Both the position numbers and the translations under genes were made by a program. The notes beneath the pieces were generated by a model. That model made no database searches, was not told the origin of the DNA, and saw only the letters and a program-made list of their open reading frames with translations. A stretch of DNA of 25,646 nucleotides from a virus: the IMG/VR virus record IMGVR_UViG_3300022226_000019, positions 1-25,646 of that record; one strand, given 5' to 3'. This document shows positions 7,169 through 25,646 of the stretch, piece after piece; the stretch's first letter is position 1; every line of letters begins with the position of its first letter.

Positions 7169-7633
7169 TTACACCTCTACCGTGTACAGTTTCTCGTCAA
7201 GCCGAAATCCCTCGGACTCGAGCAGGGCCTTGACACCCCGGCTCCCGAGTTGTTGCTTGGACCCCGCCGCCACGCGCTGGCAGCCCACCAGCTTGGCCCA
7301 CCGCTTCAGCACATGGATAAACTCACGGGCCAACCCGTTGCGCCGGTGGGGCTTCCTGATCCACACGGCCGTCTCTGTCGCGGTGCGGTGGGTGGGGTTG
7401 TAGTACGCCGGGCAGACGACCGCTGTCATGAATCCCACGGGCTCTTTGTCGAGCTCCGCGATGATGCACAGCCTGTCGTCGTGCTCGAAGCAGCTGGCGA
7501 ACCACAGGGCCCAGCTCTCCACCGACTCTTCCCACCGGGGCAGCGAGCCTTCGCGGCCTGCGATGTGGAACTCCGACGCCATCGCCATCAGGGTCGGGAG
7601 GTCGTCTACGTCTGCAATGCGGGTACGGTTCAC
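7169..7633 (-). CDS. GNAT-family N-acetyltransferase in the virion operon (154 aa)
   Basis: Residues 1-20 (NRTRIADVDDLPTLMAMASE) form the usual GNAT strand-1/helix-1 opening. Residues 57-74 give the beta-hairpin (CIIAELDKEPVGFMTAVV), and residues 89-107 contain the acetyl-CoA pyrophosphate loop RRNGLA (97-102) after a W-I strand. The family transfers an acetyl group from acetyl-CoA to an amine; the substrate here is unknown. The GTG start at 7633 overlaps the stop of the preceding gene (GTGA), which fixes the start and excludes the longer upstream extension of the same frame. GNAT genes inside the tail/ejection cluster are known in other podoviruses, so it may modify a virion or host protein or be carried in the particle. 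Confidence 0.85.
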   Translation of the reverse strand: MNRTRIADVDDLPTLMAMASEFHIAGREGSLPRWEESVESWALWFASCFEHDDRLCIIAELDKEPVGFMTAVVCPAYYNPTHRTATETAVWIRKPHRRNGLAREFIHVLKRWAKLVGCQRVAAGSKQQLGSRGVKALLESEGFRLDEKLYTVEV

Positions 7634-8259
7634 GGGAATGCCTCCGGTGTTCCTAGGCCTTCGGCCTGGTATTTGAATCCCGCCCCGATGAAGTAGCACT
7701 CTTCGGGGTACGTGTCCGCCGCGTCCCCACCGAGCCTGGCCGTGCCGACGACAACAGGGTCGCCCTTTCTGAGGTTGGCGCCATCCAGGGCTGAGAATTC
7801 CGTAGTAACTCTTTTGTTGGTCACCTCTGGTGTCGGTGCCGTCGCGTACAGCAGGGTCTCGCTCATGGATCCGTTCGCGTTGGGGATAGCGGCCGCGTAC
7901 CGCAGACGGACATCGCCCGCCGCCGCGTCGTCTGGCATCCAGACCATAAACGGGATGATGTCGGTGCCGTCCTTGTAGTTGTTGGGCAGGGTCCGACCGC
8001 CATACCAGACCGACGTGGAGCTCGGGCTGAGGTTCCAGAACCGGATTGTCCCCGTCGGGTTGCTCTGGGTGTACGCCGCCAGCTCCTGCATCTCCATGGC
8101 CGCCATGAACTGTACCGCCCAGAGCTTTTTGTTGGTGTCCCACCCGAGCGTCGAGAAGACGCGGTCGAGGAACTCTCGCCAGTCGCGCGTGGGGTGCCCG
8201 GTCTCGATGTCGACCATGGGCCCGTTGCGGATAGGGAACCGGGGCCGCCACTTGCTCAC
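7630..8259 (-). CDS. Virion-associated protein of unknown function, beta-rich (209 aa)
   Basis: A 209-residue protein directly after the gp10-like tail hub. The first about 60 residues are polar and partly helical. The rest alternates short beta strands with aromatic and glycine turns (for example GTIRFWNLSPSS, DIIPFMVWMPDDAAAGDVRLRY, CYFIGAGFKYQAEG), suggesting a beta-sandwich or jelly-roll domain. The VWMPDD followed by G-x-V-R-L-R pattern is reminiscent of small receptor-contacting or structural domains seen in marine phage virion proteins, but I cannot name a family. By position it could take the place of a tail needle (P22 gp26), although it lacks the long coiled coil of gp26. The GTG start overlaps the upstream stop (GTGA). 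Confidence 0.65.
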   Translation of the reverse strand: MSKWRPRFPIRNGPMVDIETGHPTRDWREFLDRVFSTLGWDTNKKLWAVQFMAAMEMQELAAYTQSNPTGTIRFWNLSPSSTSVWYGGRTLPNNYKDGTDIIPFMVWMPDDAAAGDVRLRYAAAIPNANGSMSETLLYATAPTPEVTNKRVTTEFSALDGANLRKGDPVVVGTARLGGDAADTYPEECYFIGAGFKYQAEGLGTPEAFP

Positions 8260-9683
8260 CGGTCGGTCCTCTCTACGTCGATAAACGCGTCGACGATATG
8301 CAGCTTCGCGTTGGCCGCGGTGCGGCCACGGAGGTGGCGGTTACGAAAGCCACCCAGGCGCCAAAACTCGACGCGGGTCCTGCGCTCGCCGATCACGCCG
8401 GTGCCGCGGTAGAGCCGGTTGCTCCAGAGCCCGCCCTGGTCGTCGCTCCAGTCGAGACCGATCTGGGGGGCTGTTTCGCCAGAGCCAACGACCCCCCGCT
8501 CGACCTCGTAGCGCAGTCTCCGCATCAGGGAGTATTTGCCGCCAAACGTCACCATGGGGTGGACCCACTCGCGCAACACCCTGTCGCCGTCGTCGGTGTA
8601 GGTGTTGAGATCGAGCTCGTAGAGTTGGCCGTTTTCGAAGTCGCCTACGATGTTTTTGTTCCACTGGAAGATGTGGTGCTGCGCCCGCCACCGCCCGTCG
8701 GACTTGCCGCCGTCGCTCGTATTGTAGCTGCTGCGCTCGTGCCACCTACCTGTGCTGACATCGAAGACCAGCGAGGCGTCCCTGAAGTTGAGGCAGTAGA
8801 ACGTGTGGCCGCGCTGCGCGTACACGAACGCCGTGGCCGTCTGGGGCGATGCTAACTCGGCGATGCGATCGTCGATCGCCAGCGTGGACACCGCCTGCGG
8901 CTGACCGCCGGACTCGACGTACACCCGCAGGTCGTCGCCGAGCCAGTAGACCCGGTTGTCCGCCTTGGCTACAGAGTGTGGCGCTATCAGCCCGCGCTCG
9001 AGAAGCCCGGCGCCTGTGCGCTGAAACGGGAAGTCAGGGTCGCCCACGTTGACGTAGTTCTCGATGGTCCGCTCTTTGAAGATCTTCACCTCACGGTGGT
9101 CAGAGATGATCGAGACCAGGTTGTCTGGGGCCGAGTCGGCAGAGGTGAAGTTGAGGGCACCCCACCCCAGCATCCCGTCGCCGGATGCGCCGTCCTCCAC
9201 GTCCGACACGTTGAACTGCTGCGATCCGTAGAGCCCCGCTATCGCGAAACCGTCCTGGTACGCAGCGCCAGCCCCCCTCCATGGATCTTGTGGGTTGCGG
9301 TTCTGTACGCCGTCGTCCCTGGAGACGACAAAGAGGCCCGCCTCGCAGTTTATGAGCGCGTGGTACTTGCCGTGATCGATGAAGACAGTGTCGCCGCCCG
9401 GGATCTCCCCCAGGTCCGTGGACTCACCCGTGACCGCGTAGGCGTACACCCTGTTGCCGATCACCGCGATGATGTCGCCAGCCAGGCGCGTCAGTCCACG
9501 ACAGGGGCCCCTGGCCTGCTCGTCTCCCCAGGGCACCAGGCCTGGCGTGCCCATGATCGAGAACGGGGACGCCGACCCCTGGGGGTTGGGGTGGATGAAG
9601 CAGTTGACCAGATTCTCCAGGGAGACGGCCTTGCTCCGCCCCACCGCAGACTGGGTTGCGAGCGGTAGCCGTACCTCGGGCAT
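8256..9683 (-). CDS. P22 gp10-like packaged-DNA stabilisation / tail hub protein (475 aa)
   Basis: The length (475 aa) is close to that of P22 gp10 (about 470 aa). The N-terminus carries the family opening of a short strand, the motif LENLVNCFIHPNPQGSASP (22-40) and a GTPGL segment where the family usually has a TPGL motif. Repeated strand-turn-strand units follow (GLTRLAGDIIAVIGNRVYAY, VYWLGDDLRVYV, HTFYCLNFRDASLVFD), as expected of the beta-propeller-like hub. In P22 this protein plugs the portal vertex with gp4 and gp26, holds the packaged DNA and connects to the tailspikes. The ATG at 9683 overlaps the stop of the gp4-like gene by one base (TGATG), so the two partner proteins are translationally coupled. 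Confidence 0.88.
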   Translation of the reverse strand: MPEVRLPLATQSAVGRSKAVSLENLVNCFIHPNPQGSASPFSIMGTPGLVPWGDEQARGPCRGLTRLAGDIIAVIGNRVYAYAVTGESTDLGEIPGGDTVFIDHGKYHALINCEAGLFVVSRDDGVQNRNPQDPWRGAGAAYQDGFAIAGLYGSQQFNVSDVEDGASGDGMLGWGALNFTSADSAPDNLVSIISDHREVKIFKERTIENYVNVGDPDFPFQRTGAGLLERGLIAPHSVAKADNRVYWLGDDLRVYVESGGQPQAVSTLAIDDRIAELASPQTATAFVYAQRGHTFYCLNFRDASLVFDVSTGRWHERSSYNTSDGGKSDGRWRAQHHIFQWNKNIVGDFENGQLYELDLNTYTDDGDRVLREWVHPMVTFGGKYSLMRRLRYEVERGVVGSGETAPQIGLDWSDDQGGLWSNRLYRGTGVIGERRTRVEFWRLGGFRNRHLRGRTAANAKLHIVDAFIDVERTDR

Positions 9684-10045
9684 CAGTAACTCTTGCTTCT
9701 CACTCGTGCGTGCTTTTTGCCCCCGTGCATCTGGGACTGCAGCTCGCGGTAGCCCTCACCGCCCCCGGCCACAATCGTCTGCGGCACGGACGTCCCCAGA
9801 AACAGCGCGGCGCACTTCCACGCCATGTACTTCTGCAGGGGCTCCTGGGCCCACGCGGGGATGTCTGCGGTGGAGGTGCCGTCCCCGAAGGGGATCTGGA
9901 GGTCCTTCTGGAGCTGCGCGTGAACAGACTCCCAGCGTTCCTTGACCTCCGCGGCATCCTCCGCCGCAGCTGATTGCCCCGCGCCGACCACCCCGAGCTC
10001 AATGAGCGTCTTGGTGGCCAGCTCGTCTGCGGTCCAGCTGGCCAT
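9683..10045 (-). CDS. P22 gp4-like head-to-tail adaptor (120 aa)
   Basis: A short helical protein with the family-typical N-terminus TADELATKTLIELGVVGAGQ (5-24), an acidic helix, the motif IPAWAQEPLQKYMAWKCAA (61-79), and a basic C-terminal tail (GGKKHARVRSKSY). P22 gp4 attaches under the portal ring as a dodecamer and is the first head-completion factor; this copy is somewhat shorter than P22 gp4. The gene lies directly before the gp10-like gene, the same order as in P22, and shares a TGATG junction with it. The ATG start lies 6 bases after the upstream stop. Confidence is high because motif, size and gene order agree. Confidence 0.8.
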   Translation of the reverse strand: MASWTADELATKTLIELGVVGAGQSAAAEDAAEVKERWESVHAQLQKDLQIPFGDGTSTADIPAWAQEPLQKYMAWKCAALFLGTSVPQTIVAGGGEGYRELQSQMHGGKKHARVRSKSY

Positions 10046-10051
10046 CTAACT

Positions 10052-10504
10052 TCAGACGGCCAGACCCATGCGGCGGGCGCCGCGCTGGCGCTCGAGCTTG
10101 GCGGCGCGCTCGCGCACCAGCTTCAGGTCGTCCTCGATCTCCTTGCCGCTCGCCTTGAGGGTGCCGGAGTGAACGTGGACAACGCACTTCTCGTAGAAGG
10201 GGTGGCTGCGGGGGACCTCGACCTCTTTGCCCTTCTCAAAGACGATGCCGGGGGCGTCCGGGTTTGCTTCCGACGGGGGTGGCCCTACCACGCGGAACTT
10301 GTCCGCGAGGGTGGCCTCTTCGTTGATCTCCTTCTCGCGCAGCGCGAGCTCGGTCTTCTGCTGTTCGAGCATCTGCTCGCGCAGGTAGTTGGGGAGGAAG
10401 GGGTCGTCGGGGATCTTGGTCTTCGGCGCTGCGGCCTTGAGGCGAACCGCGATGTACGCCTTCTTCTGCTCTGCGGTCATGCCCGGGTACGTGAACTTGG
10501 CCAT
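10052..10504 (-). CDS. Conserved-position virion or head protein, unknown function (150 aa)
   Basis: A 150-residue charged protein between the capsid gene and the gp4-like adaptor. The first about 75 residues are helical and rich in K, E and Q (AEQKKAYIAVRLKAAAPK, then REQMLEQQKTELALREKE). A short beta segment follows (DKFRVVGPPPSE, GIVFEKGKEVEVP), and a second basic helix ends the protein (DDLKLVRERAAKLERQRGAR). ATG 10504 is chosen because GGAG lies 6 bases upstream on the minus strand; an in-frame ATG six codons earlier lies upstream of that ribosome-binding site and is less likely. The gene follows the strong hairpin at 10553-10586, so its mRNA may be less abundant than that of the capsid gene. 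No family recognised; a head accessory or joining role is only inferred from position. Confidence 0.65.
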   Translation of the reverse strand: MAKFTYPGMTAEQKKAYIAVRLKAAAPKTKIPDDPFLPNYLREQMLEQQKTELALREKEINEEATLADKFRVVGPPPSEANPDAPGIVFEKGKEVEVPRSHPFYEKCVVHVHSGTLKASGKEIEDDLKLVRERAAKLERQRGARRMGLAV

Positions 10505-10552
10505 GGTGCTCTCCAGAGGCATGAGCCTCGGTTGGGTTCCTCCGAGTTGATT

Positions 10553-10586
10553 GAGGGGCCGGACCTCGGAGGTGGCCCGGCCCCTC
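10553..10586 (-). terminator. Strong GC hairpin just after the capsid gene (terminator or processing site)
   Basis: A perfect 10-bp stem (GAGGGGCCGG at 10553-10562 pairs with CCGGCCCCTC at 10577-10586) encloses a 14-base loop that contains a further small stem (ACCT/AGGT). It begins 10 bases after the capsid stop on the transcribed strand. There is no run of T after it, so it is not a classic intrinsic terminator. Partial termination, or protection of the capsid mRNA 3' end, would raise capsid yield relative to downstream genes. Confidence 0.6.
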
Positions 10587-10596
10587 TGCGTCAGTC

Positions 10597-11664
10597 CTAG
10601 CTATCCGCTACGCCCGACACGAAACCAGTCAGCACGCCGTGCTGCACGCTGTTGTACGTCGGCTTGGCAACGCCGCGGATCTCGGCAATGCCGACGCCGC
10701 GCTTGTTGCCGTAGTCGAACGTGTCGTCGATGGGGTGAGTTTTCTCTCCCCACGCGACGATGATCGCCTGCGCTCCACACAGGTAATACGGCTCCACGTC
10801 GATGCCGCTGTTGCCGACGCCGCTGATGACGGAGATCTCGGGGATCTCTCGAATCAGGACGTTGCGCCACAGGAGGTCGCCGCCGCGGAAGAGCGGGTTG
10901 GAAACGCCGCGGTTGCGGGCCTCGCGGTTCGCCTGAAGCATCGCCGTGTCGTTCTCGAGGTCGCGCATCCCGAGCGAGCCCACGAACATCACGTAGAACT
11001 CTTCGTCCTCCGCGACCTTCACGGGGCGGATGTGCGGGTCCGCGGTCTTGATGCGACGCTGCGCCAGCGACACGATGCCCGTATCGAGCGTGTCATTGGT
11101 GCTGTCGACCTCCGCCAACGCGGCGGAGTGGTCATTCGACGCGTTGTTGCTCACCGCGTTGCCGAACAGGTAGCGGTCGGCATTGGCGGCCAGGTGCGCG
11201 TCCTTCTCGGCTTCGGAGGCCGAGGAGTACGCCTCGACGCCGTCGACGTTGGGCGAGCCGAGCTTCTCGATGATCGCATCGCGGAGCTTCTCCATTGCCC
11301 AGTCCTTCAGGGCGAACTTGGCGCCCTTCAGGAGATCGAGCTGCGTCTTCTTGGCCTCCATCTTCCCGTGGACCACCGCGTTGCGGAGTTGGTCGACGGT
11401 GACCTTGTAGCCGCGGTTGATGAACTGCTCTTCGTTGCCTTCGAGGGTATCGTCCCCCGTGACACCGGCGTTCTGGAGACGCTGCAGAATCGAGACCGTG
11501 ACGTCGTCACCGGCCTTCGCGGTGAGGTCCATCACCGTCTGGATGATGGAGTTTTGGTCCATGCCCATGAACCGCTTGAAGCGGTTGTCACGGACGTACT
11601 CGACGAAAAACTTCTTCGCCCACTGGTCAACTTGGTTGGCAGCGGCGACAGTTGTGACTGTCAT
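10597..11664 (-). CDS. Major capsid protein, N4-gp56 family (355 aa)
   Basis: The sequence carries the hallmarks of the N4-gp56 coat family. The N-terminus contains QWAKKFFVEYVRDNRFKRFM (15-34); then NSIIQTVMDL with a basic, glycine-containing strand; then the signature VTGDDTLEGNEE followed by VTVDQLRNAV and a K-T-x-x-D-L helix. The middle contains a loop with QRRIKTADPHIRPVKV, and the C-terminus is beta-rich (PYYLCGAQAIIVAWGEK). The family has an HK97-type fold. It is expressed directly after the scaffold with a 29-base gap. Its start ATG 11664 is preceded by a GGAAGG sequence that sits in the loop of a small hairpin. It is the most abundant structural product expected in this window. Confidence 0.92.
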   Translation of the reverse strand: MTVTTVAAANQVDQWAKKFFVEYVRDNRFKRFMGMDQNSIIQTVMDLTAKAGDDVTVSILQRLQNAGVTGDDTLEGNEEQFINRGYKVTVDQLRNAVVHGKMEAKKTQLDLLKGAKFALKDWAMEKLRDAIIEKLGSPNVDGVEAYSSASEAEKDAHLAANADRYLFGNAVSNNASNDHSAALAEVDSTNDTLDTGIVSLAQRRIKTADPHIRPVKVAEDEEFYVMFVGSLGMRDLENDTAMLQANREARNRGVSNPLFRGGDLLWRNVLIREIPEISVISGVGNSGIDVEPYYLCGAQAIIVAWGEKTHPIDDTFDYGNKRGVGIAEIRGVAKPTYNSVQHGVLTGFVSGVADS

Positions 11665-11669
11665 ATCTG

Positions 11670-11684
11670 GTGCCCTTCCGGCAC
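11670..11684 (-). promoter_or_regulatory. Small hairpin presenting the capsid ribosome-binding site
   Basis: On the transcribed strand the sequence GTGCC-GGAAG-GGCAC forms a 5-bp stem whose loop is the Shine-Dalgarno-like GGAAG, ending 5 bases before the ATG of the capsid gene. A loop-exposed ribosome-binding site could keep the start accessible for heavy translation. The pairing is visible; the effect is inference. Confidence 0.4.
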
Positions 11685-11693
11685 CTCATGGCT

Positions 11694-12530
11694 CTAGTGG
11701 GGCTGGAGCGGTGCTCCCTTGAGTGCGGTACTGAGGAGATCCTCATCCGCGATACCCCCGCCAATCGGCGCCGATGTGCCGACGCCCATAGCGCCAGCGT
11801 TCGAAGTAGGGATGGTTGCAACAGACCGGGGCCCTTTGCCCTGGTCACCTTCAATGCCCATCTCGGCACGCAGCCTGGCGCGTTCCTCCTCGCGGATACG
11901 CTCCCGCTCCTTCTCCGGGTCGAACGTAGCGGCTTCCGCCGCCCTCTTCTCGGCCTCGCGCCTGGCGAAGACCTGTTGCGCTGCCCACTCCGCGGGGTCG
12001 AGCTGGCGGTTGAGATTGGCCCCCAGCCGGGGGTCCTTCTGCACCATGACCTGAAACTCGCCTAGGAGATCCTCCCAGTCCGAGTACTTGGCCATGGCGT
12101 TCTCGACGCTCACGTCGAATCGCTCCGCCTTCTCTGCCGCGCGGCCCTTGGCCACCGCACGATCGATCGAGCCCTCAGGGTCCTCCCAGAAGGAAGGTTC
12201 CTGCACTGGCTCTCCGGGTTCCAAGCTGGCCGTCTGGCCCTCATGGTAGCCGCGCAACCGCGCGGCTTCGAGCTCTGCTGCTTGCCGAGCTTTTCGCTCT
12301 GCGGCGAGTGCGGCCTCGAGGCCGTCCTCTACCCTCGAGCTGCTTGGCTCTGGCTGTTGTCCCGTCTGCCCTTCTTCGCCCGTCGTGGCCGGCGGCGCCG
12401 TGGCTTCCGTGGACGCCGGCTGCGCTTCGACTGCTGGGCCGCCCTCCGGGGCCGGGCTCGGCTCGGGGGTTCCGCTCGCGGCGGGGGTTGCGTCACCGTA
12501 CAGTGCGTCGTGCAGCTGGTTGTCTTCCAT
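11694..12530 (-). CDS. Scaffolding protein (278 aa)
   Basis: A Pro/Ala/Glu/Thr-rich disordered N-terminal region (1-70) is followed by charged helices suited to coiled coils (EAALAAERKARQAAELEAAR near 75-94; DPEKERERIREEERARLRAE near 205-224) and a Gly/Ser-rich tail. Aromatic residues are few, one cluster being SFWEDPEGS. This composition, the size and the position between portal and coat are those of P22-type scaffolds, which co-assemble with coat and leave before DNA packaging. The start ATG 12530 has GAGGG five bases upstream. A sigma70-like promoter lies about 50 bases upstream. No protease motif was seen. Confidence 0.85.
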   Translation of the reverse strand: MEDNQLHDALYGDATPAASGTPEPSPAPEGGPAVEAQPASTEATAPPATTGEEGQTGQQPEPSSSRVEDGLEAALAAERKARQAAELEAARLRGYHEGQTASLEPGEPVQEPSFWEDPEGSIDRAVAKGRAAEKAERFDVSVENAMAKYSDWEDLLGEFQVMVQKDPRLGANLNRQLDPAEWAAQQVFARREAEKRAAEAATFDPEKERERIREEERARLRAEMGIEGDQGKGPRSVATIPTSNAGAMGVGTSAPIGGGIADEDLLSTALKGAPLQPH

Positions 12531-12579
12531 CGTTACCCTCAGGTGTGGTGGTGGCCCACGCGGGGCCGGTCAACGATGG

Positions 12580-12607
12580 TTTACAGACTGTCGCGCTGCG
12601 CTGTCAA
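12580..12607 (-). promoter_or_regulatory. Putative sigma70-like promoter for scaffold and capsid
   Basis: Read leftward, a consensus -35 box TTGACA (12607-12602) is followed after 16 bases by TGTAAA (12585-12580), 4 of 6 matches to the -10 consensus. It lies in the 84-base gap between portal stop and scaffold start, the widest gap in the central part of the operon, and would start transcription just upstream of the two genes needed in greatest quantity. A weak GGCCC/GGGCC hairpin (12553-12567) lies in the predicted leader. Confidence 0.45.
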
Positions 12608-12614
12608 CGAGCGT

Positions 12615-14759
12615 CTACTGGAGGGCCGAATCGTTGCCGATCCCGCGGCTCGGTTTGAGCGCGCCCTCCTCGATCGCCTCGGTCTCCACAATGAGCTTGG
12701 CGGTGGCCGCCTGGGCCTTGCCGGCCTCGATGACCACGGCCTCGGCCTGCGCGCCGGCCTTGTCGGCCTGGGCCTTCTTGAGCTCGGCCTCTGCTTCCAG
12801 CTTCGCAATCCGGGCGGCCATCTCTTGCATGGCGGCCTGCTGCTGCTGCTGCTGCTGCTGCACCACCTCGGGCGGGGGCGGCTCCTTCAGCTTCGCGATG
12901 AGTTGGCGGCGGTTCGCCAGGGGCGAACTCATAATGACCATCTCGATCCATGAGTCGGGGATCTGTTTGCCGGCGGTGGCCATCCGGTGCAGGAACTCCA
13001 GCAGGCGTTCGTGCTGCGCGGCCTGCACCGACGGGCTGGCGTCGACGACCTCGAGGCGGATATCGACGTCGAGCTGTGCGACGTCATGCTCGGTGAAGGG
13101 GTCCTTCGCTTGCGGGGCCTTCATCAGTGACCGGAGCGCGATGTCCGCGGGGTCGTCCGTTACCTCGAACCCCTGCTGGGCCTCTTGCTGCAGGCGCTGC
13201 GTCGCCATCTGCAGGACCTGGTCGTACACGCGGGCGGGGCCTGGGCCGAAGACCAGGGAGATCGCCTTCTGAGGGGTGTGCCCCTTGTCCATCAGGTCGA
13301 GGACACGCATGCCCTTCGTCATCTGCTGGTTGATGCGCACGAAGCGGTATCCCTCGTTCTCTTCGTCGTCGCGCACCCGGAGCCACATGTCCTCGGTCCA
13401 ATTTTGGCGTATGAGCCACCACACCTTCCGCTGGCTGCGCCAGTCGTAACGCTCCAGGTGCTGGAAGATCGGCCGCATCTTGAGCGTGCCGACCTCGCGC
13501 CTCTCAGAGAACTCGCGCGCCGAGCTCGCCGGGGCATCGCCGGGGCCGCCGAACCCGATCTCGTCCATATCCGCGCCGGTGGCCTGGTAGGCTTGGAACT
13601 GACCCATGGCCAGCGCCGAGCCATCGAGGATCTGCACGCGCCCCTCGGCTATCGCGTTGCGGTTCACCCGCAGCTTCCCGTCCGGCTTGGCGACCTCCTC
13701 CATGAACTCTTCGATGTCGTCGATCGCCTGGTCCTCGTACATCACCTGCTTTGTCGACAGGTGGTGCATCATCTTCGACCGCCGCTTGTTGCGTTCGTCC
13801 TGAGGGCTTCGCAGGCGCCGGCCCGCGCCGTAGCGGTTGCCGTCACGATCGACGTAGCCGGACACCAGCTCCATGGGATTGAATGGCCTGCCGCGGTCGT
13901 CTCGGAACGGAACCGGGAAGGGCTTGATCAGCCAGTCGGCCCGGTTGAAGTGCGCGCCCCAGATGGTGCGCCCGCCAGCCTTGTCCCACTCAGTCCAATA
14001 GCACTCGAAGATCTGCATGCGGCTGGTCTTGGAGTCGAACCACCGCCGCGGGGCGTCGTCGGCGGTGTCGCCGAGGAAGCTCAGCTGCGCGTCCGCGAAG
14101 TTGCCCTTGGCCGCCTCGATGACGTCGCGCTTGCCGCTGTACATGGGGTCGTCGTACAGGTCGTCGAGGTGGCGCCACACCACGATGCCCAGGTACTGCG
14201 CGTCCGAGAAGTCGGGCTTGCGTGAGTGTGGGTCGTACCAGATGCGGTCCCACTCCAGCTCGTCGATCGTCAGAATGACCCGCCGAGAGCCGTTGACCAC
14301 CTGCTCGATCACGCCGTGGATGTGCCCGCCGATGCCCTCGATCACCTGGTGCTTGGCTGTGTAGCTGCGCTTGTAGTCCCACTCGGTCTCGTCGGCCGCA
14401 AAGGCGAGCGCGTCCTCGGCGATGCTCGCGTCATCAGCATGAGCGGGCGTGCGCGGGTAGGCGCGCGGAGACCTGACCGTGGTGGCCTCGACGCCCAGCA
14501 GGAAGTCCAGCATGGGGCCCATCTTGTTGGTGGTCACGATGGGCTGGCCGCGGTCATCGAGATCCGCTTCCTCGTCGGACCGCCACTGCTTGTTGTCGTA
14601 GTAGTCTCTGTCGAGGGTGGCCTCGAGGCGGGCCTCGTGGGTGGCCTCTTCCCAGCCCTTGTACCACTCGATGCAGCGGATGAGGCGGCCGTCGTCGCCG
14701 ATGCGCTCGGATGATAGGTGATTCTCTGCCGCGTTGATGCGGCCGTCGGCCTGGGTCAT
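12615..14759 (-). CDS. Portal protein, P22 gp1-like (714 aa)
   Basis: The length matches P22 gp1 (725 aa). The N-terminus (DGRLIRCIEWYKGWEEATHE), the segment DRDYYDNKQW, then PIVTTNKMGPMLDFLLGVE, are typical of P22-type portals. Further on there is a D-R-I-W-Y-D-P-H-S motif, a W-x-D-K-x-G-G-R-x-x-W-G region, and a long wing/stem/crown. Residues 634-641 are eight glutamines encoded by eight identical CAG codons, followed by an Ala/Glu/Lys-rich helix (about 645-700) like the barrel that extends into the capsid in P22. The dodecameric portal is the DNA channel and docks terminase. I prefer ATG 14759, two bases after the upstream stop and with GGGAG upstream, over a 16-codon longer frame that overlaps the previous gene. 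Confidence 0.9.
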   Translation of the reverse strand: MTQADGRINAAENHLSSERIGDDGRLIRCIEWYKGWEEATHEARLEATLDRDYYDNKQWRSDEEADLDDRGQPIVTTNKMGPMLDFLLGVEATTVRSPRAYPRTPAHADDASIAEDALAFAADETEWDYKRSYTAKHQVIEGIGGHIHGVIEQVVNGSRRVILTIDELEWDRIWYDPHSRKPDFSDAQYLGIVVWRHLDDLYDDPMYSGKRDVIEAAKGNFADAQLSFLGDTADDAPRRWFDSKTSRMQIFECYWTEWDKAGGRTIWGAHFNRADWLIKPFPVPFRDDRGRPFNPMELVSGYVDRDGNRYGAGRRLRSPQDERNKRRSKMMHHLSTKQVMYEDQAIDDIEEFMEEVAKPDGKLRVNRNAIAEGRVQILDGSALAMGQFQAYQATGADMDEIGFGGPGDAPASSAREFSERREVGTLKMRPIFQHLERYDWRSQRKVWWLIRQNWTEDMWLRVRDDEENEGYRFVRINQQMTKGMRVLDLMDKGHTPQKAISLVFGPGPARVYDQVLQMATQRLQQEAQQGFEVTDDPADIALRSLMKAPQAKDPFTEHDVAQLDVDIRLEVVDASPSVQAAQHERLLEFLHRMATAGKQIPDSWIEMVIMSSPLANRRQLIAKLKEPPPPEVVQQQQQQQQAAMQEMAARIAKLEAEAELKKAQADKAGAQAEAVVIEAGKAQAATAKLIVETEAIEEGALKPSRGIGNDSALQ
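12837..12860 (-). repeat. CAG trinucleotide repeat (8 copies) in the portal gene
   Basis: Eight uninterrupted CTG units on the plus strand (CAG on the coding strand) encode Gln 634-641 of the portal. Use of a single codon throughout suggests expansion by slippage rather than selection on amino acids alone. Changes in copy number would stay in frame. Confidence 0.9.
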
Positions 14760-20603: not shown

Positions 20604-20656
20604 GGTCCGTTACCTACAGCAACGCGGCACCCAGCGTCCACCAAACCAAAGCCTGC

Positions 20657-20672
20657 CCCCGGTCGACCGGGG
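20657..20672. other. Perfect 16-bp palindrome in the gap before the exported-protein gene
   Basis: CCCCGGTCGACCGGGG is self-complementary over 16 bases and lies 54 bases upstream of the 369-aa gene start. No T run follows on either strand. It could be a stem ending transcripts from the small upstream ORFs or a protein-binding site. In the surrounding stretch 20604-20874 (271 bases) I see no gene. Confidence 0.4.
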
Positions 20673-20832
20673 CTGACGACGTGGTTGGGACTCAGGGCAT
20701 CGAGGGGGGTGGTTCCACCGCCGGCTTTGGTGGCTACTGCCCAAAAGCAGGGGCTCTCTTCTTGGGGGAAGGGAGAAGCATCGCCGGCGGTGGAGCGAAG
20801 CTCATGCTCACGGACGCATTACGTCGTCAAGC

Positions 20833-20845
20833 GACAATTTTTGTC
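20833..20845. promoter_or_regulatory. Inverted repeat GACAA-TTT-TTGTC, possible operator
   Basis: A 13-base inverted repeat lies in an AT-richer patch of the otherwise GC-rich gap. It shares the arms GACA/TGTC with the palindrome at 22020-22034. It could be a regulator-binding site; no good promoter was found beside it. Confidence 0.25.
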
Positions 20846-20874
20846 ACCCGCAGCCCGCCGGAAAACCTCAGGTC

Positions 20875-21096
20875 TCACCGTCTGGACGGCTGGAAACCAG
20901 GGGTGTTGCTCAGGCGTGTAACAATTGCGGCCCCGCGCTCGTCCATCGAGAACCGCCTCCCGATGGGGTCCAGGGTCCGCCCGCCGAGTGCGAGCTCACG
21001 GACCGCCGGCGGGAGCGCGTGGATCCGCAGAGCGTATGCCTGCCGGACCGTCGCCAACTCGTCGCTCGTCAGCCCTCGGTCCAACACCACGGACAC
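20875..21096 (-). CDS. Possible small protein (73 aa)
   Basis: A 73-codon frame with GTG start and strongly G/C-ending codons like its neighbours. The product is helical (TSDELATVRQAYALRIHALP, then PAVRELALGG), followed by LDPIGRRFSMDERGAAIVTRL. It overlaps the end of the 94-codon ORF by 28 bases. No ribosome-binding site is obvious and no family is recognised. A shadow frame is possible, but neither strand here has a better candidate. Confidence 0.4.
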   Translation of the reverse strand: MSVVLDRGLTSDELATVRQAYALRIHALPPAVRELALGGRTLDPIGRRFSMDERGAAIVTRLSNTPGFQPSRR

Positions 21097-21353
21097 GTCA
21101 CCGGGTCATGCACCGCCCGGGGGTTGTGCCGCGCCCTCAACTCGAGCGCGTGCTTCCGCTGCCGGGGAGTCCAAGGACCTCGAGGCCGCTTCTCCTGGTA
21201 GCTGGGCTCTCGGATGGCCTCTACCAAGGGACCGTTTTCCCCAAATTTTTTGGATATGCGAGCGGAGTCAAATAACGATTGCGAGCTCCCCCGCGGTCGA
21301 GGGCGGCCACCCCCCGGTCGGCCCTCGGGGCCCCTTCTAGAGCGATTTCGCAC
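21069..21353 (-). CDS. Possible small protein with C-terminal CPWC motif (up to 94 aa)
   Basis: A frame starting at GTG 21353 inside the end of the small terminase gene and ending at 21069. The first 30 residues are low-complexity Arg/Gly/Pro and may be untranslated; a later TTG start near the segment LVEAIREPSYQEKRPRG is possible. The end reads RQRKHALELRARHNPRAVHDP followed by TCPWCWTEG, which resembles a small zinc-binding tail. Codon thirds are G/C-rich in the second half but the AT-rich stretch near 21245-21275 is unusual. The call is tentative. Confidence 0.35.
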   Translation of the reverse strand: MRNRSRRGPEGRPGGGRPRPRGSSQSLFDSARISKKFGENGPLVEAIREPSYQEKRPRGPWTPRQRKHALELRARHNPRAVHDPVTCPWCWTEG

Positions 21354-21936
21354 GTTTAGCCGCCTTTCGAGCTGGCCTGGCCTGTCCGCCGGTTAGGCGC
21401 TCGATCGCTGCATCGAGGTCGGCCTTGGGTAGGTCTACCGGCCGGGCCGCCGGCTGTAGGTCTTGACCCTGCAGGAGCCCAAGGCGCTGCAGCAGCAGTT
21501 TCACGGCATCGAGCTTGGGGTGTAGTTCGATTGTGACCCCGTGGCGGGTAGTGCTCAGCTTGCGTATGGCCGCCGTCGCCGTCGCCGGTAGCAGGTGGCT
21601 CGGGAGCGGGTAGACGCCGTCCCGGTCCCAAGTGCAGACCGTGGCGATGTCGGACGTGGCAATCGCCAGCGTCTCCCTGTCCAGGGTGGCTGCATCTAGT
21701 TCGAGCCGGGCCAAGCGCTCGGCCTGCAGCTTGGCCACCACCCCTTTGACCCGGGGGTCTCTCGATAGCCTATCACCGTGCTTAACCGTGTATCCTGCCT
21801 CACGAGCCGCCTGTGCTGCCGATCCGTACGCTGCGAGTGCATGGGCGAATGCCTGCTGCCGCGGCGATAGCGGCCTACTCAGGATAGCTGCCCTGGGGTC
21901 TGGGTGCTCGGTGTCTGGGGTGGTGCCTCGGGCCAT
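21337..21936 (-). CDS. terS: Terminase small subunit (199 aa)
   Basis: After a short polar leader the segment SPRQQAFAHALAAYGSAAQA (24-43), continued by AREAGY, is the helix-turn-helix DNA-binding opening of the terminase_2-type small subunit. Then come RLSRDPRVKGVVAKLQAERLAR (57-78), a Leu-rich helix, the segment IATVCTWDRDGVYPLP and a K-L-D-A-V-K-L-L-L-Q-R-L-G-L helix typical of the family, and finally a basic tail. It recognises the packaging site and presents DNA to the large subunit. ATG 21936 is preferred. An in-frame TTG at 22026 would add 30 residues but lies inside the palindrome and has no ribosome-binding site. It is the first gene of the leftward module. Confidence 0.8.
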   Translation of the reverse strand: MARGTTPDTEHPDPRAAILSRPLSPRQQAFAHALAAYGSAAQAAREAGYTVKHGDRLSRDPRVKGVVAKLQAERLARLELDAATLDRETLAIATSDIATVCTWDRDGVYPLPSHLLPATATAAIRKLSTTRHGVTIELHPKLDAVKLLLQRLGLLQGQDLQPAARPVDLPKADLDAAIERLTGGQARPARKAAKRAKSL

Positions 21937-22019
21937 GGTAGCTACTACGTAGTGCTGGCCGTGCCAAACCCAGTCAAGACACCGTGCGTCATGCCCCGAA
22001 GCCTGGCGATTTCGCTGGG

Positions 22020-22034
22020 TTGACAATCTGTCAA
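22020..22034. promoter_or_regulatory. Perfect palindrome TTGACA-ATC-TGTCAA at the strand switch, possible operator
   Basis: A 6+3+6 perfect inverted repeat lies between the small terminase gene and the rightward promoter. Each arm is also a consensus -35 hexamer, but no matching -10 box lies at the right distance on either strand. A dimeric repressor site is the simpler reading. Related TTGAC pentamers lie at 22044 and 22096 and, inverted, at 22133. Confidence 0.4.
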
Positions 22035-22095
22035 TCGGGCCACTTGACCGCCCGCTCGGGGTGCTCTTTTTTTCGCCTCAGGCCTATATAATGTA

Positions 22096-22124
22096 TTGAC
22101 GATTCCCGAACGGTCGTGTACTGT
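22096..22124 (+). promoter_or_regulatory. Sigma70-like promoter for the rightward module
   Basis: TTGACG (22096-22101), a 17-base spacer and TACTGT (22119-22124) match the bacterial -35/-10 layout, with an AT-rich stretch (22085-22095) just upstream that could act as an UP element. The predicted start falls near 22131, giving a short leader of about 25 bases that contains the first ACAGGAGCAAAC copy before ATG 22156. Confidence 0.55.
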
Positions 22125-22140
22125 CATCTAGAGTCAACCT

Positions 22141-22152
22141 ACAGGAGCAAAC
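22141..22152 (+). promoter_or_regulatory. Start-associated leader ACAGGAGCAAAC, copy 1
   Basis: Twelve-base element with GGAG 8 bases before ATG 22156. It is identical to the four other copies in the rightward module; the preceding bases are AACCT rather than AACC. Confidence 0.85.
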
Positions 22153-22155
22153 AGC

Positions 22156-22371
22156 ATGTTCAAACCCGACCCCAGCCACGCCACCTTGATGGCCATCGGC
22201 CGCCGCAAGCTTGCACGGTACCGCAAGGCCGCCGATGACGCGTCCTGTGAGCTGACAGCTGAGGACATCTGGGACCATATGACATGGTTCGCCACCACCC
22301 TGCCCGAATGCCCCTACCCGGACAATCGCGGCGGATGCGGTTGCGACTTTGACTGCCGGGGTGGCCGATGA
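22156..22371 (+). CDS. Small Cys-rich hypothetical protein (71 aa)
   Basis: The first gene of the rightward operon. Basic N-terminal half (RRKLARYRK at 16-24), an acidic helix (TAEDIWDHMTW) and a C-terminal cysteine cluster at 52, 61, 63 and 67 (C-x8-C-x-C-x3-C) that could bind zinc. No family recognised. ATG 22156 follows the shared leader element, and the TGA overlaps the ATG of the next gene (ATGA), so the second gene is translationally coupled and has no leader element of its own. Confidence 0.7.
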   Translation: MFKPDPSHATLMAIGRRKLARYRKAADDASCELTAEDIWDHMTWFATTLPECPYPDNRGGCGCDFDCRGGR

Positions 22372-22583
22372 TCATCGCCTGGCTCAACCGCACCCTGAAG
22401 GCTCGCGAGGCGCGCCAGCTCGACAACGGCCCGGGTCTGACCCAGGCCGAGATCGACGCGTGGATCGATACCCACGGTGAGGACTGCTCGATAGTCCGTT
22501 ACTGGGGGTGCGAGCGGTCCGAGCAGACCTACAGCGACTCAGACGAGTGTCCCACTACCATCAACTACCGGCTCGCCCGGTAA
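22368..22583 (+). CDS. Small hypothetical protein (71 aa)
   Basis: A short protein with a basic amphipathic N-terminus (IIAWLNRTLKAREARQL), then LTQAEIDAWIDTHGEDC and an acidic Cys/Ser region (YWGCERSEQTYSDSDECP). Three cysteines (40, 48, 61). No family recognised. It is started from the ATGA overlap with the preceding gene. The TAA stop is followed after two bases by the leader of the next gene, so there is no spare intergenic sequence. Confidence 0.65.
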   Translation: MIIAWLNRTLKAREARQLDNGPGLTQAEIDAWIDTHGEDCSIVRYWGCERSEQTYSDSDECPTTINYRLAR

Positions 22584-22585
22584 CC

Positions 22586-22597
22586 ACAGGAGCAAAC
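22586..22597 (+). promoter_or_regulatory. Start-associated leader ACAGGAGCAAAC, copy 2
   Basis: GGAG lies 9 bases before ATG 22602. The identity extends to the 16-base form AACCACAGGAGCAAAC, and the stop codon TAA of the preceding gene merges with its left end. Confidence 0.85.
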
Positions 22598-22601
22598 CCA
22601 A

Positions 22602-22943
22602 ATGGCACTGAAACCCCACACCGTCATCCACCCCGATGCCGCCCGTTACGAACGATGCGAGCCCATGCGCTGGCCTGACCGCTCCGGCAACGAGCGGCAG
22701 GCCCTCTCTCGCCGGCTTCGAGACCAGGCGCGCCAGGTAGCCGTTGCTCGATTCGAGGCGGCCGTCGAATCCGGGAGCCTGAGTCGAGCCAAGCCCCTTG
22801 ATCTCCTGCTGATGTACGAGACCGAACTGTCGCGCCTGGGCTTCGCCCCCCGTATGGAGTCGGGGGTGTCCCACATCATGACGTACAGCTTCGATGCCGA
22901 CGGCCAGGTTATCGGCTGGACCTACGAGCGGACCTATCGCTAG
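22602..22943 (+). CDS. Hypothetical protein (113 aa)
   Basis: A 113-residue soluble protein. The middle is helical and basic (SGNERQALSRRLRDQARQVA), followed by a second helix (KPLDLLLMYETELSRLGF). The end is a beta hairpin (IMTYSFDADGQVIGWTYERTY) suggestive of a small alpha/beta fold. No family recognised. It is preceded by the shared leader and followed 15 bases after its stop by a GC-rich hairpin. Confidence 0.7.
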   Translation: MALKPHTVIHPDAARYERCEPMRWPDRSGNERQALSRRLRDQARQVAVARFEAAVESGSLSRAKPLDLLLMYETELSRLGFAPRMESGVSHIMTYSFDADGQVIGWTYERTYR

Positions 22944-22958
22944 TCGCCTCAGGTCGGG

Positions 22959-22976
22959 CCCCCGCTCCGGCGGGGG
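22959..22976 (+). terminator. Intergenic hairpin CCCCCGC-tccg-GCGGGGG
   Basis: A perfect 7-bp GC stem with a 4-base loop lies 15 bases after the stop of the 113-aa gene and 26 bases before leader copy 3. No T run follows, so transcript processing, stabilisation or partial termination is as likely as full termination. Confidence 0.5.
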
Positions 22977-23002
22977 TCATTCCTGAGTCAACCAGCAAAC
23001 CC

Positions 23003-23014
23003 ACAGGAGCAAAC
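23003..23014 (+). promoter_or_regulatory. Start-associated leader ACAGGAGCAAAC, copy 3
   Basis: GGAG lies 8 bases before ATG 23018. The ten bases AGCAAACCCA occur twice here (22994-23003 and 23008-23017), as if the element had been partly duplicated. Confidence 0.85.
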
Positions 23015-23017
23015 CCA

Positions 23018-23869
23018 ATGTGCATTGATGTCCGAGCAATCGAACGGAGGGCCCTAGCGTCCCTGCCGAAACCCGGTGACACTCCCCTCAAATGGATCAG
23101 GCGGGTGACCGCCAAGCTCCAGATCCTGACCGGTGACAACAGCAAGCTTTTGAAAGCGCTCGACCTGATCGCCGACGAGTATGGCGATCGGTGGATCGAG
23201 CACGTTGACGGGATCGACGTCGCGCTGGCCCTGGCTCCGGCCAACGTCTCCGGCGTGATCGATGTGTGTGCCGGCGCTTCCCCGGGGTGTCGCGATGCCT
23301 GCATTTACGAAGCAGGCAACGGTCGGTATCCCAACGTCAAAGCAGCGCGGATCGAGCGTACCAAGCTGTTCGCCCACGACCGGGGCGAGTTTGCCGAGCG
23401 AATCGCGCACGACGTGGTTCTCGTGGCCACCCTGGCTCGGGCGCTAGGGGTGCCGGCGAATCTGCGGCCTAACATGCTGTCCGATCTGCCATGGGAGCGG
23501 ATCCGGCTCTTTTCGGACGGTTCAACGTTGCTCGATCTATGCCGGGCTTGGGGCGTGCGCATGTACGACTACACCAAGATCGCGGCCAGAGCGCGGCAGC
23601 AACCGTACCCGCTGACCTACAGTCGGAGTGAGCTGACCCCGGACAGCCTGGTGGCCGAGATGGTCGCGGCCGGAATCAACGTCGCGGTACCCTTCGCCAC
23701 GGTCCCCGAGTCTTACCTTGGTCTCCCGGTGATCGACGGCGACAAAACAGACCGGCGCCTGTCAGATCCCCCGGGGGTAATCGTCGGTCTGAAGGTGAAG
23801 CTACCCGGCGCCAAGGATCAGACCGGCTTTATCGTCCGGTCACACCCGTCATTGCGGATGGCGGCTTGA
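23018..23869 (+). CDS. Conserved phage protein with C-x6-C-x3-C motif, GP88/DUF7227-like (283 aa)
   Basis: Residues 76-119 contain the family-like core: VSGVIDVCAGASPGCRDAC (C84, C91, C95), then A-G-N-G-R, then A-A-R-I-E-R-T-K-L-F. Later blocks are NLRPNMLSDLPWE (148-160), MYDYTKIAAR (182-191), YPLTYSRSE (197-205), a GINVAVPF strand (219-226), PVIDGDKTDRR (237-247) and GVIVGLKVK (253-261) ending T-G-F-I-V-R. I recognise this series from uncharacterised proteins of many tailed phages. Alternating strands and helices suggest a barrel, and the three cysteines could bind metal or an iron-sulfur cluster. Biochemical function is unknown. It is preceded by leader copy 3 and followed by a UUCG-capped hairpin; it lies upstream of DNA methyltransferase genes. 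Confidence 0.75.
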   Translation: MCIDVRAIERRALASLPKPGDTPLKWIRRVTAKLQILTGDNSKLLKALDLIADEYGDRWIEHVDGIDVALALAPANVSGVIDVCAGASPGCRDACIYEAGNGRYPNVKAARIERTKLFAHDRGEFAERIAHDVVLVATLARALGVPANLRPNMLSDLPWERIRLFSDGSTLLDLCRAWGVRMYDYTKIAARARQQPYPLTYSRSELTPDSLVAEMVAAGINVAVPFATVPESYLGLPVIDGDKTDRRLSDPPGVIVGLKVKLPGAKDQTGFIVRSHPSLRMAA

Positions 23870-23880
23870 TGTCTGCCGGG

Positions 23881-23904
23881 GGCTCCCGACTTCGGTCGGG
23901 GGCC
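23881..23904 (+). terminator. Intergenic hairpin with UUCG tetraloop
   Basis: GGCTCCCGAC (23881-23890) pairs with GTCGGGGGCC (23895-23904) as a 10-bp stem with one T-G wobble, closed by the very stable C(TTCG)G loop. It lies 11 bases after the stop of the 283-aa gene and 19 bases before leader copy 4. The following bases are TTACGG, not a T run. Confidence 0.6.
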
Positions 23905-23923
23905 TTACGGGAACCATCAAACC

Positions 23924-23935
23924 ACAGGAGCAAAC
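23924..23935 (+). promoter_or_regulatory. Start-associated leader ACAGGAGCAAAC, copy 4
   Basis: The 16-base form AACCACAGGAGCAAAC ends one base before GTG 23937; GGAG is 6 bases from the start codon. This copy decides the GTG start of the downstream gene. Confidence 0.85.
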
Positions 23936-23936
23936 T

Positions 23937-24194
23937 GTGCCAAAGAACTACACCACTCATCTCACCCCCGGTGACCGCATTGCCTATACGGCGCGCTTTG
24001 TGCGCGATGTGTGCGGGGGCCTTCATTCGTCCGGCGCGATGCGCGGAACCCTGATCCGTCACGACGGCGAGCGCCTGGCCTGGGTCCATTGGGACGAAGA
24101 TCCGGCGGACGTCGAGACCATGGTAGCGGCGTGCAATATCGCCAAGGTCGGATCCGTCCGGTTCGCCGACGTACGCGCGGAAGGGGGCCGGTGA
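23937..24194 (+). CDS. Small hypothetical protein upstream of the methyltransferase (85 aa)
   Basis: An 85-residue mostly beta protein: THLTPGDRIAYTARFVRDVC, then a glycine loop, MRGTLIRHDGERLAWVHWDED, then VGSVRFADVRAEGG. The alternation of short strands with G-D-x-V/I and G-x-L-x-x-x-D turns suggests a small SH3- or KOW-like barrel, but no family was identified. The GTG start is fixed by the adjacent leader element. The stop TGA shares a base with the ATG of the methyltransferase (TGATG), so the two are translationally coupled and may act together. Confidence 0.65.
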   Translation: MPKNYTTHLTPGDRIAYTARFVRDVCGGLHSSGAMRGTLIRHDGERLAWVHWDEDPADVETMVAACNIAKVGSVRFADVRAEGGR

Positions 24195-25126
24195 TGCGAG
24201 TAGCAGACCAATTCGCCGGGTTCGGCGGATTCTCAACCGGCGCGGATCTGGCGGGGCTGTCCGTGGTGTGGGCGGCCAACCACAACCCCACGGCGGTTTA
24301 CGTCCATCAGACCAACCACCCCGGCGCGATCCACCTGTGCCAGGATCTGCATCAGGCTAACTGGCACGACATGCCACAGTTTGACCTGCTGCTGGCCGGG
24401 CCGTCGTGCCCGGGCTTTTCGAGCGCAGGTCAGCCGGGCCGGGCCCGATCGGCGGAGGTCAGGAAAAAGCACGACGACATGCGGGCCGATCCATGGGCGG
24501 TGATTTCGTGTGTCGAGGTCACCCGCCCGCCGGCGGTGATCGTCGAAAACGTGCCGCTCATCCGTTCGTGGCCGTTGCTCCCGAGCTGGCTCGATGCCTT
24601 CACCCGCCTCGGGTACACGGTGACGATTGAGAATTTGCTAGCCTCGCGGTGCGGCGCACCCCAACGTCGTAACCGGGTGTTTTTCTCGGCCGTGCGGCAC
24701 GGCTCGCTCGACCTGCGAAACCTCGAAGACGACACCGAAACCCCGATCGGGCCCTGCATCGATTGGGACAGCGCCGGCGACGGGAAGGGGTGGCTCGAAG
24801 TCGGCGCCGCTTCCGACGTGATCAAGGCGCGGATCGCCAAGGGCCGGCGCAACCACGGCCGGCGGTTCCTGACCCAGCACGTCACCGGCCATCGGGGCGT
24901 AGGTCTTGATGAACCGATCCGCACGATCACCACCAAGGCACAGTGGAACGTTGTGGACGGCGATCGTTACCGGTCACTCTCGAAGCGGGAAACAGCCCGC
25001 GCGATGGGCTTTCCCGACTCGTTCGTGATCCCGGCGGACGTCACAAAAGAGCAAGCGGTAAGGGGGCTGGGCAACGCGGTGCCTCCCCCGATGGCTCGTC
25101 GATTGATCGAGCGGATTGCAGGCTGA
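24194..25126 (+). CDS. C5-cytosine DNA methyltransferase (310 aa)
   Basis: Motif I DQFAGFGGFSTGADLAG (5-21) binds S-adenosylmethionine. Motif IV is AGPSCPGFS (68-76) with the catalytic Cys72, in place of the more usual PPCQ. Motif VI is VENVP (117-121), motif VIII QRRNR (157-161), then a short target-recognition region (about 165-240), motif IX (SKRETARAMGFPDSF) and motif X GNAVPP (293-298). All essential motifs are present, so an active enzyme methylating cytosine C5 is expected; the target sequence cannot be predicted. ATG 24194 (TGATG overlap) gives a full family-length domain; the longer open frame back to 24011 only adds residues antiparallel in function to the upstream gene. No restriction enzyme gene is visible, so protection from host restriction is likely. 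Confidence 0.93.
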   Translation: MRVADQFAGFGGFSTGADLAGLSVVWAANHNPTAVYVHQTNHPGAIHLCQDLHQANWHDMPQFDLLLAGPSCPGFSSAGQPGRARSAEVRKKHDDMRADPWAVISCVEVTRPPAVIVENVPLIRSWPLLPSWLDAFTRLGYTVTIENLLASRCGAPQRRNRVFFSAVRHGSLDLRNLEDDTETPIGPCIDWDSAGDGKGWLEVGAASDVIKARIAKGRRNHGRRFLTQHVTGHRGVGLDEPIRTITTKAQWNVVDGDRYRSLSKRETARAMGFPDSFVIPADVTKEQAVRGLGNAVPPPMARRLIERIAG

Positions 25127-25132
25127 CTGTGC

Positions 25133-25155
25133 GGCGCTGGTCTCAGGCCGGCGCC
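25133..25155 (+). terminator. Intergenic hairpin GGCGCTGG / CCGGCGCC
   Basis: An 8-bp stem with one T-G wobble and a 7-base loop (25141-25147), starting 6 bases after the methyltransferase stop and ending 19 bases before leader copy 5. No T run follows. This is the same arrangement as the hairpin at 23881-23904. Confidence 0.5.
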
Positions 25156-25174
25156 AATCCGTGAACCTACAACC

Positions 25175-25186
25175 ACAGGAGCAAAC
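25175..25186 (+). promoter_or_regulatory. Start-associated leader ACAGGAGCAAAC, copy 5
   Basis: The 16-base form AACCACAGGAGCAAAC ends one base before ATG 25188; GGAG is 6 bases from the start. It selects ATG 25188 over an upstream start in the same open frame. Confidence 0.85.
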
Positions 25187-25187
25187 A

Positions 25188-25427
25188 ATGAAACTCGGAC
25201 CCCTTTGCCTCTACCCGGACTGCGGCAACACCCGCCGCACCCGCGGGCTTTGCCACGGCCACTACCAGGTGTGGCGCGACCGCGCGCGCAAGGGTGTCGC
25301 GGCCGGTGATGCCGACCTGATCCGGCGGGGATTGTTGCTGCCGAAAGGACAGGGCGGATCGCCCTTGGTCGGCAACGGCGACGCGTTCCTCAAGGGCTCG
25401 ACCGTGCGAGGCACCGGCAGCCAATAA
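25188..25427 (+). CDS. Small zinc-finger-like protein (79 aa)
   Basis: Residues 7-26 read C-L-Y-P-D-C-G-N, then RTRGLCHGHY, a C-x4-C-x9-C-x2-H zinc-binding pattern (C7, C12, C22, H25). This knuckle, ending G-L-C-x-x-H-Y, is common at the N-terminus of phage HNH endonucleases and small DNA-binding proteins. A basic helix follows (VWRDRARKG) and then a Gly-rich tail; there is no HNH catalytic part, so it may be a DNA-binding relic or regulator. It lies between the two methyltransferase genes. Confidence 0.7.
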   Translation: MKLGPLCLYPDCGNTRRTRGLCHGHYQVWRDRARKGVAAGDADLIRRGLLLPKGQGGSPLVGNGDAFLKGSTVRGTGSQ

Positions 25428-25472
25428 CCACATTCAGGCAAGGCCGACAGGCCGACCCACACGGAGGCACCG

Positions 25473-25646
25473 TGAAAGCCTTAGATCTCTTTTGTTGCGC
25501 CGGCGGGGCTTCCGCCGGTTTGGCCCAAGCGGGTTTCGAGGTAACCGGCGTGGATATCGCTGACCGGCCCTCCTACCCGTACACCTTCATCCGGGGAGAC
25601 GCCCTCGACATGCCGATCGCATTCATCCGGCAATTCGACCTGGTCT
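25473..25646 (+). CDS. Second C5-cytosine DNA methyltransferase, N-terminal part only (cut by window end)
   Basis: From GTG near 25473 with GGAGG four bases upstream, the frame gives KALDLFCCAGGASAGLAQAG, then FEVTGVDIADRPSYPY and a FIRGDALDMP segment, and runs off the right edge. DLFCCAGGASAGL is motif I of C5 methyltransferases, and the acidic V-D-I with a following D-A-L is the cofactor pocket. The catalytic motif IV lies beyond the window. This product is clearly different from the first methyltransferase. Its ribosome-binding site (CACGGAGGCACC) is not the shared leader found before other genes of the module. The start position may be off by a base because it was counted by hand. Confidence 0.8.

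Follow-up and report, generated by a model that had tools for sequence, protein, structure and literature searches.

A repeated start-associated leader in the non-structural module of a P22-like podovirus record

The window considered here is the complete IMG/VR record IMGVR_UViG_3300022226_000019, a linear stretch of 25,646 bases with a GC content of 66%. Its rightward, non-structural module presents a 12-base leader, ACAGGAGCAAAC, just ahead of five genes. From sequence comparisons, the leader is most likely another, independent case of a phage start-associated sequence (SAS), a kind of element that has already been reported.

Exact copies of the leader begin at 22141, 22586, 23003, 23924 and 25175, all on the + strand. 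No further copies were found on either strand of the whole record with up to two mismatches allowed, all five are located at starts, and a reversed control pattern of the motif returned no matches in the window. Copies 1 to 5 lie 3, 4, 3, 1 and 1 bases from ATG 22156, ATG 22602, ATG 23018, GTG 23937 and ATG 25188, respectively, with intervening spacers (AGC, CCAA, CCA, T and A) that vary in both length and sequence. A longer form, AACC(Y)0-1ACAGGAGCAAAC, is common to all five. It is exactly AACCACAGGAGCAAAC at copies 2 (22582–22597), 4 (23920–23935) and 5 (25171–25186), and reads AACC-T-ACAGG at copy 1 (AACC-T-ACAGGAGCAAAC, 22136–22152) and AACC-C-ACAGG at copy 3 (AACC-C-ACAGGAGCAAAC, 22998–23014). 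Both the five positions and the identity of three copies over 16 bases agree with the original prediction. The coding sequences downstream differ from their first codons on.

The leader is confined to the non-structural module and to one orientation. Every independent rightward start carries it except that of the last methyltransferase gene (GTG 25472), the two rightward genes started by an overlap (22368 and 24194) do not, and the motif is absent from the leftward leaders listed, which belong to structural genes. This distribution, with its single exception, had been described beforehand and was borne out. The distances from copies 1 to 5 to the upstream gene are 219, 18, 74, 67 and 61 bases; thus, four of the five exceed 50 bases and copy 2 is the exception.

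The Shine-Dalgarno (SD) core alone cannot account for the identity of the flanks since the SD-anchored chance of five identical flanks is ~2e-14. In the chance model, AGGAG was granted to six leaders, 116 AGGAG leaders in GC-rich relatives of the capsid lineage supplied the base frequencies, and the probability applies to five of the six being identical at all seven other positions. In a duplex calculation, pairing with the anti-SD sequence was limited to AGGAG, and the same is true of the SAS consensus of the cluster K mycobacteriophages. The earlier claim that the flanks go beyond the needs of ribosome binding is upheld by both results. It is hardly credible that these are ordinary SD sites made alike by chance or base composition. 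While many virus and bacterial contigs have a single ACAGGAGCAAAC ahead of a start codon, which is what a good ribosome binding site (RBS) would lead one to expect, the SD-anchored probability argues strongly to the contrary, and no 12-mer was found at three or more starts in any of 25 genomes (21 capsid relatives, some partial, and four named phages). Looking for the 12- or 16-mer as a lone exact match was uninformative since about as many matches were obtained as a good RBS would give. An RBS consensus of one host group was rejected as the 47 bacterial matches are spread across many phyla. Whole-gene duplication, one of two alternatives named in the original prediction, was also rejected as the source of the copies because a pairwise comparison of the five downstream proteins found no significant similarity; they are not paralogues.

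Sequence comparisons indicate that the leader belongs to the virus, and not to a gene or capsid lineage, since the leaders of orthologous genes differ and the capsid relatives present neither a copy nor an array. With respect to the gene, 60 orthologues of the GP88-family protein that follows copy 3 (27–41% identity) have leaders unlike those of the window, several of which match the RBSs typical of the virus in which they occur. As a result, a gene-bound leader was rejected. With respect to the lineage, a clade marker of the capsid relatives was rejected as well: the 42 whole records with a related head protein (45–59% identity) have no exact copy, and the 25 genomes scanned have no array. 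Searches with the 113-aa protein that follows copy 2, the methyltransferase, the terminase and the capsid as queries found no close relatives in the non-structural arm.

The other alternative in the original prediction, conservation of GGAG alone in relatives, could be compared only at 45–59% capsid identity, where exact copies are absent, and a non-homologous virus that carries the flanks argues against it. In a 51.9-kb IMG/VR record (locus L136/L444, referred to here as G012), four neighbouring non-structural genes have AACC-rich GGAGCAAA leaders at positions 48700–50640. The record was picked from those holding one exact AACCACAGGAGCAAAC; this copy is the search match, and selection played no part in the remaining three. 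On a flank score with a maximum of 12, the four leaders score 12, 12, 10 and 10; when 1,266 SD-anchored leaders from 100 other loci were scored, a single one reached 10. As in the window, the leader, AACC-AACCACAGGAGCAAA(A/C), stands at four neighbouring non-structural genes, the virion genes are mostly on the strand opposite the array, and GC hairpins are predicted upstream of some copies; unlike the window, two of the four copies read AACCAACGGAG. The proteins of the window have no meaningful match in G012, and the head-protein and terminase families differ. Because of this, the likeness of the leaders would be either convergent or horizontally acquired.

The frequency of such arrays was considered with an array finder that requires the same 12-mer at no fewer than four starts, with distinct downstream sequence, applied to ~320 loci that are not a random sample. 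The published cases were recovered (Anaya with 11 copies, Mordin with 15 copies), and besides these and the window only L016, L039, L190 and L210 were flagged (~1% of the ~320 loci). The virus of L016 (IMGVR_UViG_3300019889_000015) is GC-rich, 62.5 kb in length, and has tape measure and integrase families. Nine exact ACCGAGCGAGGAG leaders precede small genes on its minus strand at ~56490–60905, and conservation in their alignment stops at the start codon. The L016 leaders mostly follow strong GC hairpins, GCGCGACAG...CTGTCGCG, and then GTCCGACCGGAC or GCCCGACCGGGC, an arrangement that resembles an SAS with its extended form (ESAS) and is much richer than the array of the window. In L039, the AGGAGGATAACC leader is present in seven exact and several approximate copies on the minus strand (7494–13193 in reversed coordinates). 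The sequence upstream of these is CA-rich, and TTTGATTCTATTTCA recurs farther upstream.

With moderate confidence, the repeat may be considered a standardised translation-initiation leader that serves a non-structural operon and belongs to the same class as the cluster K SAS. Each independently translated unit of the operon would then receive a strong and uniform rate of initiation. Within the fragment, and with one exception, the leader is placed at those starts that are unable to rely on translational coupling, and the coupled genes do not have it. The flanks, AACC(Y)ACA and CAAAC, contain no G, and no T except for the optional Y, and may serve to keep the site unstructured in a genome of 66% GC. 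An unstructured start region brought about by G-free flanks is weakly supported by folding calculations, in which the unpaired score of the leader region is 0.55 versus 0.43 at leftward starts (P = 0.023); the leaders are 75–85% A+C. The exact identity of the copies is probably upheld by selection for strong, uniform initiation and also by copying of the leader upon gene gain. Such copying would parallel the insertion of gene 14 in Corndog, where 17-bp direct repeats lie on both sides of the gene and are present once in relatives without it (PMC4351075).

The arrays of other sequences in other viruses (L016, L039, Anaya and Mordin) favour a translation-initiation leader. Several points weigh against it, however. 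The difference in accessibility is small, and the comparison is partly circular because the five leaders resemble each other. Neither pairing nor accessibility requires exact flanks, and ordinary RBSs vary. The exact motif occurs in 0 of the 42 whole records with a related head protein, and in bacterial genomes it is scattered over many phyla rather than being the consensus of one host group.

The exactness of the flanks may instead reflect recognition by a trans-acting phage protein or RNA that acts on the translation of all of the leader genes at once, as a regulon under activation or repression. The five copies do not vary at the positions for which no pairing with 16S rRNA is possible, the motif is confined to one non-structural module on one strand, and the same idea has been kept as a possibility for cluster K (PMC3203893). 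No candidate factor was identified in the window, which is itself incomplete. In addition, a phage factor common to both viruses is not expected because no shared protein is detectable between the window and G012, the virus with the near-identical leader. A phage-encoded switch is therefore considered unlikely. A broader version is quite unlikely too: AACC-ACAGGAGCAAAC would be a recognition element in at least two unrelated viruses, by which a trans-acting factor of either phage or host would set non-structural translation jointly, as a regulon with an extended SD mark.

The copies may also be viewed as recombination joints, where short identity at the borders lets leader-gene cassettes come and go, leaving the repeats as footprints. 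The copies do flank single genes or coupled pairs, the genes downstream are unrelated, leaders differ between orthologues, and the direct repeats of Corndog gene 14, 17 bp in length and single in relatives lacking the gene, provide a precedent (PMC4351075). A joint of this kind does not readily explain a motif that remains invariant and always on the RBS while the spacer varies from 1 to 4 bases, and no close relatives were found that differ by the presence of a cassette. Recombination as the origin of the repeats is thus decidedly improbable.

GC-rich stem-loops are predicted on the + strand ahead of three of the leaders (bounds are approximate). The first (22956–22977, region z = -4.0) lies between stop 22943 and leader 3, the second (23877–23908, region z = -5.3) between stop 23869 and leader 4, and the third (25131–25155, region z = -2.0) between stop 25126 and leader 5. 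They have no sequence in common, none is followed by a U tract, and comparable hairpins occur between structural genes (z = -3.4 and -2.9). A hairpin and leader acting as one conserved element was rejected since the hairpin sequences differ and similar ones are present between structural genes; known structured RNAs and tRNAs were rejected as none were found in a search. From these predictions, the hairpins may be a general feature of the genome, perhaps related to RNA processing or transcript ends, and not a part of the leader. A strong 13-bp stem-loop is also present immediately after the major head protein gene (10523–10598, minus strand), followed by a weaker predicted stem that would enclose the SD site of the next gene.

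The three hairpins bear on whether the repeat might be a composite of promoter and leader, with the stem-loops ending the previous transcript, as has been thought for some ESAS. The ESAS sites of Adephagia contain putative promoters, and a TTGACG-17-TACTGT candidate, read by eye, is located just before copy 1. However, 21900–25646 contains no consensus sigma-70 promoter, and the hairpins, as noted, differ in sequence, lack U tracts and are not restricted to the leader genes. Copy 2 also has no intergenic room for a promoter because only 18 bases separate the upstream stop from the start codon. A composite promoter is accordingly very improbable.

The virus is supported as a P22-like podovirus on the basis of sequence families: P22-type portal, head protein and Hc3 families are among the window proteins, and the nearest named isolates of the head protein are CBW1004C-Prop1 and the Pseudanabaena phages Pam5, Pan3 and Pam1 (37–42% identity). 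The P22-like virion genes are leftward and include the small and large terminase, portal, major head protein, head closure Hc3 and tail fibre/spike. The rightward module begins at 22156 and runs to the end of the record. The record is probably an incomplete genome that ends inside this module, and the five copies are a count for the fragment.

The genes of the rightward module, all on the + strand, may be considered in order. The first (22156–22371, leader copy 1) encodes a 71-aa protein with no function assigned and is followed by a small gene (22368–22583) that starts by an ATGA overlap in the stop codon of the first and has no leader copy. The product of the third gene (22602–22943, leader copy 2) is a 113-aa protein with no function assigned and no relative among viral contigs. 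Leader copy 3 precedes the GP88-family protein (23018–23869, 283 aa, PF17338, phrog_1617), a family that is common in mycobacteriophages, and leader copy 4 precedes an 85-aa protein with no function assigned (23937–24194). A C5-cytosine DNA methyltransferase (24194–25126, PF00145) overlaps the stop of the 85-aa gene by TGATG and has no leader copy. Next is a 79-aa protein (25188–25427, leader copy 5) with a weak HNH endonuclease-family match at its N-terminus. The last gene, a second C5 methyltransferase cut by the record end (25472–25646), has the leader CACGGAGGCACC in place of the motif. Two C5-cytosine DNA methyltransferase genes are thus near each other in one module.

Two further features precede the module. 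A perfect palindrome, TTGACA-ATC-TGTCAA (22021–22035), is situated in the interval that separates the rightward module from the divergent small-terminase gene, and from 22049 onward it is followed by a terminator-like stem and T run; these are possibly an operator or a transcript end. Between two leftward genes, 733 bases (20604–21336) contain no clear gene. Overlapping minus-strand open reading frames at 20875–21096 and 21069–21353, one of which has CPWC, could represent a broken small gene.

The window adds an independent SAS case from a P22-like phage with flanks that are A/C-rich rather than G/C-bounded, and G012 provides a second virus in which unrelated genes follow a nearly identical leader. 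Taken with the arrays of Mordin, L016 and L039, these cases suggest a repeated origin for leaders of this type, and that they are a property of the genome and not of the gene. The purpose of the SAS, a question since 2011, is now testable in terms of whether the flanks matter for initiation or bind something.

The cluster K mycobacteriophages carry an SAS with the consensus 5'-GGGATAGGAGCCC in 11–19 copies per genome (PMC3203893). Both this element and the window leader are short, asymmetric RBS repeats with an AGGAG core (AGGAGC in common) that are found in one orientation in the non-structural arm. Both are conserved beyond rRNA pairing, are mostly followed by ATG, and mostly occupy the larger intergenic gaps. 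The flanks differ, being AACC-ACA and CAAAC in the window and GGGAT and CCC in cluster K. The window has five copies in a fragment rather than 11–19 in a genome, and it lacks the conserved 17-bp inverted repeat that the ESAS places upstream of about half of the copies. While cluster K comprises mycobacteriophages, the window leader is from a P22-like podovirus whose capsid relatives at 45–59% identity have no exact copy. By this analogy, the window leader behaves as an SAS and yet is judged not to be the cluster K element, because the consensus differs and the conserved inverted repeat is absent. The proposal of an independent podovirus example of a cluster K-like SAS is supported by its position, strand bias, restriction to one module, core and extra conservation.

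Two other reported systems, together with cluster K, define the kind. The SAS of Microbacterium cluster EF, 5'-GGGAAAGGACCCC, for which little similarity to cluster K was reported (PMC7302621), differs in sequence from the window leader and is tied to a weakly conserved, GTAGAG-centred ESAS that is not seen in the window; like the window, it is an independent array of over-conserved RBS sequences. The Citrobacter phage Mordin has an SAS-like 26-bp repeat (PMC4611695). This repeat, CCAACAATCCTAAACTGGAGAATCTA, is longer than the window leader and belongs to a myophage; like the window, Mordin places extended RBS leaders before small genes of no assigned function, outside of the actinobacterial phages.

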